A stretch of DNA of 64,000 bases from Planctomyces sp. SH-PL14 (lineage in GTDB: Bacteria; Planctomycetota; Planctomycetia; Planctomycetales; Planctomycetaceae): positions 6,528,001 through 6,592,000 of the forward strand of contig NZ_CP011270.1 of the NCBI RefSeq assembly GCF_001610835.1, in the 5' to 3' direction. Each line of letters begins with the position of its first letter. Position 1 is the first letter of the stretch. Below, one piece after another: positions 19,746 to 64,000 of the stretch. The notes beneath the pieces were generated by a model, which was not told where the DNA came from, did no database searches, and worked only from the letters and a program-made list of their open reading frames with translations. The position numbers were made by a program, and so were the translations under genes.

Positions 19746-20383
19746 AGTTCGCTCCTGGGGTTCCCTGGTGACTGTTGTCGGACTGTCTCGCCGTCCTGCC
19801 GCACTTCAGGAACGTCACCGTTCCACCGCGGTCATGCCGGGACTCGTATTGAGGACACCCTTCCCGCGAAAACTGGCCCAAACTCCGCGCCACCCTCGGC
19901 GCAAAAAAGAACCTCCGCCTGTGCCGTTCGAACTGTCTGGCTGGACCCGCAGTTTGAGGTGGAAACCGCGCTTCCGGGTTGTGTGAGCCGTGGTGCCGAC
20001 GAATCGGTCACCCGGATATACACGCAGCCGAAAGTGCAGCCCCCTGCGAGATAGTTGTAGGGTCCGCGCACTTCACAATTCGTGATCGAACACCGCAGAG
20101 GTGTAAGCTCCGAAGAGCTCAACGGCATGCTAGTCCCGGGGAAGGAGGGGGACAAGGAGTCGTTCCGTTCGTTTGCCGAATTGACAGGAGTTTTGCCGTC
20201 GCTGAACGCGTTCGTCATCCGTCTGCCGCGAACGACGCCTTTGCGGTTGAACATCGAACACGTTGCGAGATTGCGACAGGTCGGATGCCTTCAGGAACCT
20301 GCGCGGCTCAGCAGGAGCTTCGCCCTCCCCGGGCGCGGCGTTAGGATGCCGGAGTCGACTTGCTCGCCGCCGGAAGGTGCTGT
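19746..20383. other. about 640 bp without a supported gene
   Basis: This stretch is less GC-rich than its neighbours and has overlapping open frames on both strands, for example a leftward 140-codon frame at 19832-20254 and a rightward frame at 20082-20483. Neither shows a family motif, signal peptide or convincing ribosome binding site. It may hold the promoter of the PQQ-propeller gene or a decayed gene. Confidence 0.35.
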
Positions 20384-22462: not shown

Positions 22463-22828
22463 AGGGCGCATTCGTCGATTGGTCGTTGCCAAATACTGAC
22501 CAACCGGGTCCAGGGGCACCCTGGTGGGGAGTGCAGAGGGGCAACGCTCCTTTGCCCGCCGGAGGCCTGGCCGTCGAGAGATGTCTGAAGGAGTGAGTGT
22601 CCAGACGCGGACACTGTGTCGTATGCCCCCTTACCAACCCGCGGGGATTCCAGTGCGAGCGGCGAGTTCTCAACGCTGGTCCCACAAAGCGGACATCCGT
22701 TGTTTACCAAGGTTCCTCGTTGAAGTGCCTCCGGCGGCAAGGGCCTGTGTTGTTTTTTTGGCCCCCTTGACCCCAGGCTGCCGTCGCACGTTGGGTTTGA
22801 GGTAGCAGTGTCGCATCGGCAAGGACGC
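22463..22828 (-). repeat. structured intergenic repeat, copy 2
   Basis: Reverse-oriented copy with core 22503-22828. Its lower end continues into GGGCGCATTCGTCGATTGGT (22464-22483), which matches the inverted ends of copy 12, so this copy keeps one full terminus. The left-arm loop is the long CCAAAAAAACAACACAGG module. It lies between two rightward genes and ends about 50 bp before the PaaK-like start. Confidence 0.88.
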
Positions 22829-34851: not shown

Positions 34852-35219
34852 GCGTTCTTGCCGGCGCAGCTCTGTTTGCTCAATCCCAACGTGCCACGGC
34901 CGCTGGAGGTCAAGGGGGGGCAACCCCCTTGCCGCCGGAGGCACTTCCATGAGGAACCGCGGTACGCAACGGACGTCCGCTTTGTGGTACCGGCGTTGAG
35001 GACTCCCTCAATCTACACCGCTTGCTTTGCAATCCCAGCGGGTTGGTGAGGGGGCATACGACACGGTGTCCGCGCTTGGACACGTGCTCCTTCAGACATC
35101 TCCCGACGGCCAGGCCTCCGGCGGGCAAGAGGGCGTTGCCCCCTTGCATCCCCCACCAGGGTGCCCCTGGACCCGGTTGGGGGGCGAAATGGCTGGCCAC
35201 CATCCAGCGAACGCACCCA
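34852..35219 (+). repeat. structured intergenic repeat, copy 5
   Basis: Forward copy between convergent genes, core 34852-35177. Beyond the core its right side continues to CCACCATCCAGCGAACGCAC (35198-35217), which matches the inverted ends of copy 12, so one terminus is preserved. The centre has CGGACGTCCG flanked by CAA/TTTG, a palindrome. The left-arm loop is short (GGGGGGGCAACCCCC). Confidence 0.9.
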
Positions 35220-40557: not shown

Positions 40558-40949
40558 GGTGAAGGGCGTGTACGAAGCCAGTCGTGCCGATTCTGTGGGA
40601 CGCCCCAAAACCGTCCTTGCCGGCACGACGCTGCTACCTCAAACCCAACGTGCCCCGGCAGCCTGGGGTCAAGGGGCCTGTGTTGTTTCTTTGGCCCCCT
40701 TGCCGCCGGAGGCATTTTCGTCGCGGAACCGTGGGACACAACAGATGTCCCCTTTGTGGTACCGGCGTTGAGGACTCCCTCACATCACACCGCTTGCGAT
40801 GCAATCCCCGCGGGTTGGTGAGGGGGCATACGGCACGGTGTCCGCGCTTGGACACTCACTCCTTCAGACATCTTTCGACGGCCAGGCCTCCGGCGGGCAA
40901 GAGGGCGTTGCCCCCTTGCATCCCCCACCAGGGTGCCCCTGGACCCGGT
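40558..40949 (+). repeat. structured intergenic repeat, copy 7
   Basis: Forward copy between convergent genes with core 40612-40949. On its left it carries about 55 bp more (from GGTGAAGGGCGTGTACGAAG) that is shared only with copy 8 in this window. The left-arm loop is the long module in the orientation CCTGTGTTGTTTCTTTGG, the reverse complement of that in copies 1 and 2. Confidence 0.9.
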
Positions 40950-46548: not shown

Positions 46549-47865
46549 ATGCACATTGCGATCGTCACCGCCGGCGGCGCGGGTATGTTCTGCGGCTCGT
46601 GCATGCACGACAACGCCTGGGCCCGCGCGCTGATCGCGGCTGGCCACCGGGCGACGCTGATCCCGACCTACACGCCGATCCGGGTTGATGAAGAAGACCT
46701 CAGCATCGACCGGGTCTTCTTCGGCGGGATCAACGTCTATCTCGACGCCCGCTCCCGGCTGTGGCGGAGTCTCCCGCCGGTTTTCAAAAAGTGGCTCGAC
46801 CGCCCCGGTGTGATCTCGGCGATCACCCGCTGGGCCGGCGGAGTCAGCAACAGCGCGGCCGATCTCGGCGACCTGACGCTCGCGATCCTCGAAGGGGAGG
46901 CGGGGCCGCTCCGCGAGGCGGGGGATGAACTGGCCCGGTTCCTCCGGGACCTCAATCCCGATGCCGTGATCTTCAGCAACGCTCTCCTGTGCGGGGCGGT
47001 GCGGCGGCTCAAGGAGCTTTACCGGGGGCCGGTCTACTGCATCCTCCAGGGAGATGATGTTTTCCTCGACGAACTGACGCCGGCGCTCCGGCGGCAGGCA
47101 GTCGAGCGGATCAGCGCCCGGGCGGCGGAGTTCGACGGGTTCATCGCCCACAGCGCCTTCTACCGCGACTACATCGCCGCGTACCTGCAGTTGCCCGTCG
47201 AAAAGTTCTTCACGATCCCGCTCTCGATCGATGCCAGCGAGCTTCCCGTTCCGGCCGAGCCCCGTCCGGCGGACGCGCCGTTCACGATCGGCTACTTCGC
47301 CCGGCTCGCTCCCGAGAAGGGGCTGCACCATCTGATCGACGCCTTCGAGATCCACCACCGGAGCCATCCCGACTCGCGGCTGCGGATCGGCGGCTATCTG
47401 CCGGAACGCCATGTGAAGTGGGTCGAGAACCTCAAGGCCCGCGCTCAGAAACTGGATGGAGCAGTGGAGTTCGTCGGCAGTCCCGACACGCTCGAAGAGA
47501 AACGTGACTTCTACCGGAGTATTGACGTCCTGTCGGTCCCCACCGAGTTCCTGGAACCGAAGGGGATCTACGTCCTGGAAGCCCTGGCGACGGGCGTTCC
47601 GGTCGTTCAGCCAGCCCACGGGGCGTTCCCCGAGCTGCTGGAGGCAACCGAGGGAGGGCTGCTGGTTCCACCGAAGAATCCTGTCGCCCTGGCTGACACG
47701 TTTTCCCGACTGAAGGCGGACCGGGCCGAGCGGCGGCGGCTTGGGGAGCGGGGCGCCAGGGGGGTGCGCGAGTCGCATTCGCCGGCGGCGCTTGCGGCGG
47801 CGACGATCCGCGGGCTGGAGGCGAGTGCTGCGTCGACCGCGTCCTTGCCGGTAAAGCTCCCATAG
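46549..47865 (+). CDS. glycosyltransferase family 4 protein (GT-B fold)
   Basis: A 438-aa GT-B glycosyltransferase. The N-terminal donor-independent domain begins MHIAIVTAGGAGMFCGSCMHD. The C-terminal domain has PFTIGYFARLAPEKGLHHLI, and the EX7E motif is in EPKGIYVLEALATGVPVVQP, typical of GT4 retaining enzymes using nucleotide sugars. The acceptor is unknown. The last eight residues and the stop codon lie inside repeat copy 10, so the natural C-terminus may have been altered by the insertion. Confidence 0.88.
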   Translation: MHIAIVTAGGAGMFCGSCMHDNAWARALIAAGHRATLIPTYTPIRVDEEDLSIDRVFFGGINVYLDARSRLWRSLPPVFKKWLDRPGVISAITRWAGGVSNSAADLGDLTLAILEGEAGPLREAGDELARFLRDLNPDAVIFSNALLCGAVRRLKELYRGPVYCILQGDDVFLDELTPALRRQAVERISARAAEFDGFIAHSAFYRDYIAAYLQLPVEKFFTIPLSIDASELPVPAEPRPADAPFTIGYFARLAPEKGLHHLIDAFEIHHRSHPDSRLRIGGYLPERHVKWVENLKARAQKLDGAVEFVGSPDTLEEKRDFYRSIDVLSVPTEFLEPKGIYVLEALATGVPVVQPAHGAFPELLEATEGGLLVPPKNPVALADTFSRLKADRAERRRLGERGARGVRESHSPAALAAATIRGLEASAASTASLPVKLP

Positions 47866-48177
47866 CTCAAACCCAATGTGCCACGGCAGCCTGGGGTCAA
47901 GGGGGCCTGTGTTGTTTCTTTGGCCCCCTTGCCGCCGGAGGCATTCCGGTGAGGAACCGTCGTACACAACGGACGTCCCCTTTGTGGAGACGGTGTTGAG
48001 GACTCCCTCACACTGGAACGCTCGCTCTGGAATCCCTGCGGGTTAGGTGAGGGGGCATCCGGCACGGTGTCCGCGTTTGGACACTCTCTCCTTCAGATAT
48101 CTCTCGACGAGAGGGCCTCCGGCGGGCAAAGGGGCGTTGCCCCTCTGCACTCCCCACCAGGGGCCCCCTGGACCCAG
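47839..48177 (+). repeat. structured intergenic repeat, copy 10
   Basis: Forward copy whose left end overlaps the last 27 bases of the glycosyltransferase gene, including its TAG stop. The left-arm loop is the long CCTGTGTTGTTTCTTTGG module. The right end is slightly degenerate (GGACCCAGT). It is followed about 55 bp later by the start of the CbiX-type gene. Confidence 0.9.
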
Positions 48178-61755: not shown

Positions 61756-63198
61756 TCACGCGGGCGGATCACGAAGCAACTGATTGTTCGCGATCGTGAT
61801 TCCCGAAAGCATCGAGCCGATGATCCCGAGGAATCCCTGGTCGGTGCCGCACAGGAACAGGTTTTCGACGGGCGTCTCCCCTGTGAGGATCTTTCGCGGC
61901 GCGCCGTAGACCGCCCCGCGGGCGTGGCCGGTGAACCGCTTGATGGTCTTGGGGGTGAAAATGTCCGTGTCGACGACGTGCGGGCGGAAGTCGGGCATGA
62001 ACCGCAGGGCGGACTCGACCATCCGGTCCCCCCAGGCCGCTTTTTGCCGGGCGTATTCCTCGTCCGGGAGGGAAAACCAGTAGGCCGGGTTCGCCAGAGC
62101 GGTGATCCGGACGATCCCGTCTTCCAAGGGTGGCTTTGCCTCCGCCGTCCCTAGTCCCTCGTCCCCAGACCCTGGTCCTTCCTCGTATCGAAAATTGTTC
62201 GGCGAGCAGACGATCAGGCTCCGGACATCGCACGGCTCGTCCGGAACGGCGTAGGTGAACCGCTCGGAGTCGTTGTAGAAAATGATCGTTTCGCGGTGGC
62301 CGAGGTCCGCCGGCTGCTTGTCGAGGACAAAGATCGTCTCGTTGAACGACAGTTCCCCCTCGGCGGGGCGGGGGACCGTTTCCCGGTTCGTTCCCGGCAG
62401 GAGGTCGACCGTTTCGGCGGCCCCGGCGGAGGAGAGGACGTTGTCCGCCTCGATCTCCCGGCCGTCGTCGAGGATCACGCCGACCGCCCTGCCGTTTTCG
62501 ACCTTGATCTCCCGCACGCCGTGGCGGAGCTTCAGCTCGCCCCCCAGCTCTTTGAAGTGCCGGGTCAGCACCTTGAGGATCTGCCGGACGCCGTCGAGCG
62601 GCCGGCCGAACCCCTGCTGGAAAATGCTCTTGAACATGATGACGAACTGGCTGAAGTCCATGTCGTGCGGGATTGCCGACCCGTAGAACATCAGCGGGCA
62701 GAAGAGCATGTCGATCAGGACCGGATCGCTCAGGTGCTCCTGAAGGACCTTGCGGGCCGAGACCGGCTCCTGCGACAGGTCCAGCTCGTCGAAGGCGTTG
62801 ATCGTCTCGACGAGGCGGCGGAAGCGGTCCGCCTGCTGCGGGAAGACCGCCGCGACTTCATCGACAAAGGCCGGGAAATCGTTGGTGAAATTGAGCCGCC
62901 GGCCGGGGAAGACGACCGCCGATCCGCACTGCGGTTTGAGCGAAAAATCGTCCCAGCGGAGCCGGAGCTGTTTGAGGAGCTTGGCGAGCGGGCCGGTCCG
63001 GGTCCCGGGCGGGGCGTAGTTCGTGACGGCGTGCAGGCCGACGTCGTAGTTTCGCCCGCGGAGGCGGTAGAACGAGTTCAGGCCGCCGATGGTGGTGTGG
63101 CGCTCGAGGATGCAAACCGGTTTCTCGTAGTAGGCGAGCCGGATTCCAGCCGCCAACCCGGACATACCGGCGCCGATGATGAGGGTGTGGTAACGCAA
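61756..63198 (-). CDS. CrtI/phytoene desaturase-like FAD-dependent oxidoreductase
   Basis: A 480-aa flavoprotein. The dinucleotide-binding motif LIIGAGMSGLAAGIRLAYYE lies at residues 6-25, and ERHTTIGGLNSFY gives the substrate-side FAD contact. The C-terminal FAD motif NLFLCGTDQGFLGIIGSMLS closes the protein, as in the CrtI/retinol saturase (polyene desaturase or isomerase) group. The substrate is unknown; no carotenoid or squalene genes are adjacent. Starts at ATG 63198 right at the Rossmann motif. Confidence 0.86.
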   Translation of the reverse strand: MRYHTLIIGAGMSGLAAGIRLAYYEKPVCILERHTTIGGLNSFYRLRGRNYDVGLHAVTNYAPPGTRTGPLAKLLKQLRLRWDDFSLKPQCGSAVVFPGRRLNFTNDFPAFVDEVAAVFPQQADRFRRLVETINAFDELDLSQEPVSARKVLQEHLSDPVLIDMLFCPLMFYGSAIPHDMDFSQFVIMFKSIFQQGFGRPLDGVRQILKVLTRHFKELGGELKLRHGVREIKVENGRAVGVILDDGREIEADNVLSSAGAAETVDLLPGTNRETVPRPAEGELSFNETIFVLDKQPADLGHRETIIFYNDSERFTYAVPDEPCDVRSLIVCSPNNFRYEEGPGSGDEGLGTAEAKPPLEDGIVRITALANPAYWFSLPDEEYARQKAAWGDRMVESALRFMPDFRPHVVDTDIFTPKTIKRFTGHARGAVYGAPRKILTGETPVENLFLCGTDQGFLGIIGSMLSGITIANNQLLRDPPA

Positions 63199-63276: not shown

Positions 63277-63284
63277 TCACGGCT
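63277..63284 (+). repeat. 8-bp direct repeat, left flank of copy 12
   Basis: TCACGGCT immediately outside the lower end of repeat copy 12. The identical octamer sits immediately outside the upper end (63694-63701). This is the signature of a target-site duplication made when the element inserted. Confidence 0.82.
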
Positions 63285-63693
63285 TGGGTGCATTCGCCGA
63301 TTGGTAGTCACCCAGTGTCGGCCCACCGGGGTCCAGGGGGCACCCCTGGTAGGGAGTGCAGAGGGGCAACGCCCCTTTGCCCGCCGGAGGCCGTCTCGTC
63401 GAGAGATGTCTGAAGGAGCACGTGTCCAAGCGCGGACAACGTGTCGTGTACCCCCTCACCAACCCGCTGGGATTGCAAAGCGAGCGGTGTAGGTTGGGGG
63501 AGTCCTCAACGCCGGTACCACAAAGCGGACATCCGTTGTGTCCCACGGTTCCTCACAGGAAGTGCCTCCGGCGGCAAGGGGGCGAGGCCCCCTTGACCCC
63601 AGTGGCCGTGGCACGTTGCGTTTGAGCGAGCAGAGTCGAGCCGGCAAGGACGTGTTCCCTCGTTGACCGACCACCATCCGGCGAATGCCCCCC
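63285..63693 (-). mobile_element. structured intergenic repeat, copy 12: complete element with inverted ends
   Basis: Reverse-oriented copy of 409 bp that keeps both termini. Lower end: GGGTGCATTCGCCGATTGGT (63286-63305). Upper end, read inward: GGGGGCATTCGCCGGATGGT, complementary to the plus strand near 63673-63692. About 20 of 24 positions match. The element is flanked by the exact octamer TCACGGCT on both sides. No transposase frame is inside, so it would be non-autonomous (MITE-like). The insertion point is at the stop codon of the neighbouring leftward gene. Confidence 0.85.
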
Positions 63694-63701
63694 TCACGGC
63701 T
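63694..63701 (+). repeat. 8-bp direct repeat, right flank of copy 12
   Basis: TCACGGCT, identical to 63277-63284. Its first three bases are the stop codon (TGA on the minus strand) of the partial membrane protein gene, so the original gene end was duplicated by the insertion rather than destroyed. Confidence 0.82.
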
Positions 63702-64000
63702 CCGACCACGGACGTCGCGGTTGTCGACCGTCCCTCTGCAGAACCGCCAGCGCTGCGGCGGTCGCGGCTCCATAAAGGAGGCCGGTGATCGCAGCCGCGG
63801 GATCGCAGCCGAGTTCTGCGGTCGCCGGTGCGACCCAGAGGCTGCCGACGAGGCCTCCCGCGGCCCACCCCGCGGAACTCGCCACCAGCCAGAGTCCCGC
63901 CCGCCGATAGCCGCTCTCCTGCAGCAGGCCGAACTGGGCCAGTCCCAGCAGGAGGCCGAATTGCCACGCGAACATCCACGGAAAGAACTGGGCGATCAAC
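63694..64000 (-). CDS. hypothetical membrane protein, C-terminal part (runs off right edge)
   Basis: About 102 residues visible: PWMFAWQFGLLLGLAQFGLL, a short loop with QESGYRRAG, then LWLVASSAGWAAGGLVGSLW and a third hydrophobic segment AAAITGLLYGAATAAALAVL, ending QRDGRQPRRPWSEP. Membrane protein with at least three helices in the visible part. The start lies beyond the window. No family identified. Confidence 0.65.
   Translation of the reverse strand, partial: LIAQFFPWMFAWQFGLLLGLAQFGLLQESGYRRAGLWLVASSAGWAAGGLVGSLWVAPATAELGCDPAAAITGLLYGAATAAALAVLQRDGRQPRRPWSEP

Follow-up and report, generated by a model that had tools for sequence, protein, structure and literature searches.

A probable MITE with ISKra4-type ends and the abundant repeat core that it carries in the genome of Planctomyces sp. 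SH-PL14

Insertion sequences of the ISKra4 family belong to a Mutator-like group in which inverted repeats measure 18-39 bp and direct repeats 8-9 bp (PMC3942029). MITEs of other bacteria are short, non-coding elements that are bounded by terminal inverted repeats (TIRs), flanked by target-site duplications and present in many intergenic copies. REPINs and REP elements are numerous palindromic sequences that lie between genes, near gene ends and in random orientation. A repeat element in the genome of Planctomyces sp. SH-PL14, referred to here as copy 12, can be compared with each of these systems. With the ISKra4 family (p-MULT 4, Mutator-like; PMC3942029) it shares 24-bp ends (GGGTGCATYCGCTGAATGGTGGTC), GGG/CCC termini and 9-bp duplications, whereas it has no transposase gene, is 408 bp rather than 1.39-1.45 kb long and encloses an unrelated core interior. 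It shares all of the listed traits of MITEs, but the autonomous partner is absent from this genome while autonomous elements with the same ends are found in other genera (L249, L252 and L254), most copies of its interior are without TIRs, and these interiors appear to swap short tracts. The core resembles REPINs and REP elements in all the respects named above, but it is about 330 bp long, a minority of its copies carry DDE-type ends with 9-bp duplications, and it shows no close association with a Y1 gene.

Copy 12 lies in the window, the 64,000-nucleotide stretch analysed here, which covers positions 6,528,001-6,592,000 of the 8.44-Mb single-contig genome; coordinates are those of the window unless marked as genome positions. 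The first-pass annotation of this DNA described inverted termini bracketed by an octamer, and both are present. The octamer TCACGGCT occurs at 63277-63284 and again at 63694-63701, and the termini read GGGTGCATTCGCCGATTGGTAGTC (63286-63309, plus strand) and, when reverse-complemented, GGGGGCATTCGCCGGATGGTGGTC (63669-63692, minus strand). These 24-bp TIRs are 83% complementary across 24 nt, and the right one is followed by one extra C at 63693. Between them lie, all on the plus strand, a left spacer that is weakly conserved between copies (63310-63323), the hairpin-rich repeat core (63324-63652) and a right spacer that is shortened in copy 12 (63653-63668). Internal ORFs are short, and no transposase gene is found within the 408 bp. 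TIR remnants accompany two other core copies in the window, a left one at 22464-22487 (genome 6550464-6550487, plus strand) and another at 35195-35218 (genome 6563195-6563218, minus strand).

The length of the target-site duplication was examined in 17 both-ended elements, with ends 370-470 bp apart, by comparing the flanks of the two sides over a range of lengths and offsets, with mispaired flanks as the control. Flank matching peaks at 9 bp abutting GGG/CCC (4.24 vs 2.47 matches, z=5.1), although a convincing duplication is kept in only 5 of the 17. Single elements reach 9/9 (L058), 8/9 (198392 in the 4.0-Mb block) and, in two others, 7/9. The duplication of copy 12 is best read as 9 bp, TCACGGCTT (63277-63285) and TCACGGCTC (63694-63702), matching at 8/9, because the register peaks at this length and copy 12 fits it once the extra right-end C is counted; the element accordingly measures 408 bp (63286-63693). 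The exact 8-bp duplication and the length of 409 bp given earlier are revised to these values. The earlier view that the repeat moves as a unit is borne out by this register for TIR-bounded elements, and mobility is thus supported for the TIR-bearing minority of copies. That the inverted ends and octamer of copy 12 are coincidental is scarcely credible: with offsets left free, 8-bp matches are not very rare across hundreds of copies, but this reading is refuted by the recurrence of these ends and of the 9-bp register elsewhere, both in further copies and in further genera.

The insertion lies at the stop codon of a neighbouring gene, as was recognised from the outset. A minus-strand ORF of 213 aa, whose 3' part occupies 63694-64000 and which continues past the window end, terminates there, and its stop was kept after insertion since the duplicated target includes the stop codon. 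The neighbour on the opposite side encodes a 480-aa FAD-dependent amine oxidoreductase-type protein (61756-63198, minus strand), the relatives of which are mostly found in Planctomycetaceae MAGs. No empty site for copy 12 was found by gene synteny among genomes sharing the oxidoreductase gene, and no second strain of the genus was found.

The end motif was searched for in 170 genomes of the family, and ISKra4-family transposases (NF033572) were sought in the same genomes. Other genomes of the family contain ISKra4 insertion sequences of 1.39-1.45 kb that are bounded by these ends. The ends enclose an ISKra4 transposase at L249, L251, L252 and L254, and the transposase at L234 has at least one such end. 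L249 is 1452 bp long with identical 24-bp ends, and its transposase scores 221.8 bits (cut-off 205); neither L249 nor L251 (1454 bp) has a clear duplication. L252 (1434 bp) has TCTACTACT on either side (9/9) and, like copy 12, one additional C at its right end; L254 (1385 bp) is flanked on both sides by TCGCGAAT. When 15 ends are aligned, mean column identity is 88%. Short elements (111-375 bp) that combine these ends with 9-bp duplications are also present in several other genomes, their flanks matching at 9/9 (L237), 8/9 (L230, L231 and L235) or 7/9 (L242). The genomes at L226-L228, L230, L231, L235, L237 and L242 have short elements of their own with the same ends, 9-bp duplications and different interiors, and none of these interiors matches the core of the window's repeat family.

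The ends are identified as ISKra4 at the family level. Because the same ends bound ISKra4 insertion sequences and, elsewhere, short elements with 9-bp duplications, an ISKra4 transposase is most likely the enzyme that mobilised copy 12, as judged from its ends and duplication. The first-pass annotation had left the enzyme open and offered IS66, ISL3, IS256 and IS1595 as example families; these are not needed now that the ends are assigned to ISKra4, and IS256-type transposases (Transposase_mut, PF00872) have 0 matches in this genome. The search for insertion sequences by their ends that it proposed was indeed successful, but in relatives of this genome rather than in the genome itself. The genome-wide list of ends contains no pair 1-4 kb apart without a core, and no intact ISKra4 transposase is found in this genome. 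ISKra4 transposase is represented here by two fragments only, at genome positions 5095878-5096066 (L274) and 2758537-2758707 (L275), neither with such ends nearby; across about 60 residues, the L274 fragment shares 53-59% identity with the insertion sequences that have matching ends.

Copy 12 is therefore interpreted, with a probability of about 0.85, as a MITE with ISKra4-type 24-bp ends that was placed by an ISKra4-family transposase and duplicated a 9-bp target. In the proposed mechanism, an ISKra4-family DDE (Mutator-like) transposase would have put the unit into a 9-bp staggered target holding the neighbour's stop codon, and repair would have duplicated that target. The autonomous partner would since have been lost from the genome, leaving the two transposase fragments.

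The core is far more abundant than the ends. It was surveyed in 2.06 of 8.44 Mb (24%), comprising the block from the window to 7.392 Mb and the blocks at 1.0-1.4, 3.0-3.4 and 4.0-4.4 Mb. In this sample the core of about 330 bp occupies 301 loci and 4.6% of bases, and extrapolation from this 24% of the genome gives about 1,230 copies genome-wide. Joining of flanks revealed no empty sites within the sample. Among 297 genomes of the class, one other has any core match (37 bases, E=6e-4), and the core was found in no plasmids or viral contigs. Of 237 anchored cores, 11 of which were chosen via their TIRs, 49 are flanked on one or both sides by a TIR with at most 5 mismatches, and 14 of them on both. 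Among full-length cores, about 20% have a TIR on either side, about 6% on both, and about 80% have none. The ends had been taken as the true boundaries of the repeat, a claim that does not hold for the family, since most cores are without TIRs, have a sharp left edge and leave no room for hidden arms. Five cores share a different left flank, around GGGCGCATCCGCGTCCCCCAGCATTACCGGCCCA (149558, 165871, 734171 and 789652 in the 6.5-7.4 Mb block and 134368 in the 3.0 Mb block), which is perhaps a diverged or rearranged left end.

How the core-only copies arose can be explained in two ways. In the first, insertion would have been followed by loss of the arms, with the cores remaining intact and being homogenised by short-tract exchange, with or without selection on the core. 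The second, at somewhat less than even odds, is that the core is a separate dispersed repeat with its own spread or maintenance and no target duplication, and that ISKra4-type ends captured it and mobilised a minority of its copies; it bears on the origin of core-only copies and not on the mobility of copy 12. Several features of the edges favour separate spread. The left edge is abrupt in 239 copies, with conservation falling to background within a few bases, and the flanks outside it are unrelated in TIR-less cores. The left arm is complete in 37 copies and essentially absent (0-3 bases) in 152, an all-or-none pattern that counts against arm loss and is better explained by separate core spread. 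Where a side has no TIR, the median distance from core to stop codon is 20-25 bp, compared with 67 or 133 bp where a TIR is present, and the arms are thus physically absent on TIR-less sides rather than just mutated. The spacers between TIR and core vary between copies, and other genera carry the same ends around unrelated interiors. On the right side, conservation trails off over about 20 bases. Arm loss is favoured by the graded lengths of the right arms and by the many copies that retain a single arm. It is also favoured by the rarity in this genome of ends that lack a core. The 24-bp motif, with 78 genomic occurrences when no more than 3 mismatches are allowed against 0 for its reversed control, is not a product of chance, and 28 of its 30 best matches border a core. 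The core edges have neither direct repeats nor a target motif, which counts against separate spread; the best direct-repeat signal, z 3.2 among thousands of offset tests, is taken as noise. Arm loss is the preferred but unproven origin of core-only copies, slightly ahead of separate core spread.

The relation between cores with and without ends was also examined through the core itself. On the core tree, TIR status changes 44 times, compared with a mean of 44.9 after shuffling; it thus carries no signal, and the tree favours neither capture nor loss of ends. Similarity to the consensus is 0.899 in cores with a TIR and 0.894 in those without (p=0.2).

REPIN-like movement of the core-only copies by a Y1 (IS200/RAYT-type) transposase is improbable. 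In its favour, the genome does have two Y1 transposase genes, both single-copy, and hairpins lie close to either edge of the core, which lacks a target-site duplication. Yet the cores have no target motif and no replication-strand bias, and neither Y1 gene is closely flanked by them: a partial core lies over 1 kb from one of the genes, and no core lies within 1.5 kb of the other. Known REPINs are also far shorter than this core. The Y1 gene with the partial core more than 1 kb away (L276, genome 6246572-6246910) is an IS200/RAYT-like ORF of 167 aa. The genome also has five reverse transcriptase genes (L278-L282), and a core copy lies within 1.5 kb of only one of them.

The core is almost entirely intergenic, with 3 of 271 copies inside genes as defined by a simple ORF-based gene caller. 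Copies are oriented at random with respect to genes (75 vs 83), and divergent gaps hold 45 of 267 placed copies compared with 174 of 878 gaps, so that they are hardly depleted. A role as terminator or 3' end was considered on account of the copies near stop codons; it is not claimed, given the random orientation and gap types near background. Either strand of the core folds stably (z -4.6 and -3.2) owing to internal inverted repeats. Pair counts do not support covariation, for which the nearly invariant stems are uninformative. Core copies show no codon periodicity, and those in the window have no Rfam match. The only Rfam match in the window is elsewhere, a 6S RNA gene at 19908-20104 on the minus strand (RF00013, 49.8 bits).

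Variation within the core is unevenly distributed. Among 337 core columns, 115 have one base in at least 98% of copies and 74 have their main base in less than 80%, whereas uniform divergence predicts none of either; edge anchoring inflates conservation at the edges of the core and not in its interior. This unevenness could result from drift in an exchanging pool or from selection. Shared variants are near linkage equilibrium. Mean r2 is about 0.28 for sites 1-2 bp apart and drops to 0.007-0.008 at distances above 50 bp, at which all four combinations are present in each clean biallelic site pair. This is most simply read as repeated exchange of short tracts between copies. Part of the pattern could also be mimicked by recurrent mutation at sites where only two bases are tolerated, but the multi-base haplotype at core columns 67-72, which shows no linkage at distances above about 10 bases, could not. 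In the loop of the left or the right core hairpin, and in both orientations, some copies carry an 18-base insert (CCTGTGTTGTTTTCTTGG and variants), for example those at 40607-40705 and 47838-47933; its placement suggests exchange between the two arms of the core. A bolder reading, rather doubtful at present, treats the core as a unit of its own, the roughly 1,200 copies of which resemble a freely recombining population within one chromosome, stay intact via short-tract exchange and possibly via a host function, with an ISKra4-type transposon carrying some of them as cargo.

The ends of copy 12 belong to a class of ends and duplications common to several genera of the family, for which a likely enzyme can now be named. 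The repeat load in Planctomyces sp. SH-PL14, about 4.6% of sampled bases, is large for a bacterium. The combination of lost ends with conserved, recombining interiors makes this dispersed repeat a case in which concerted evolution within one genome can be tested.
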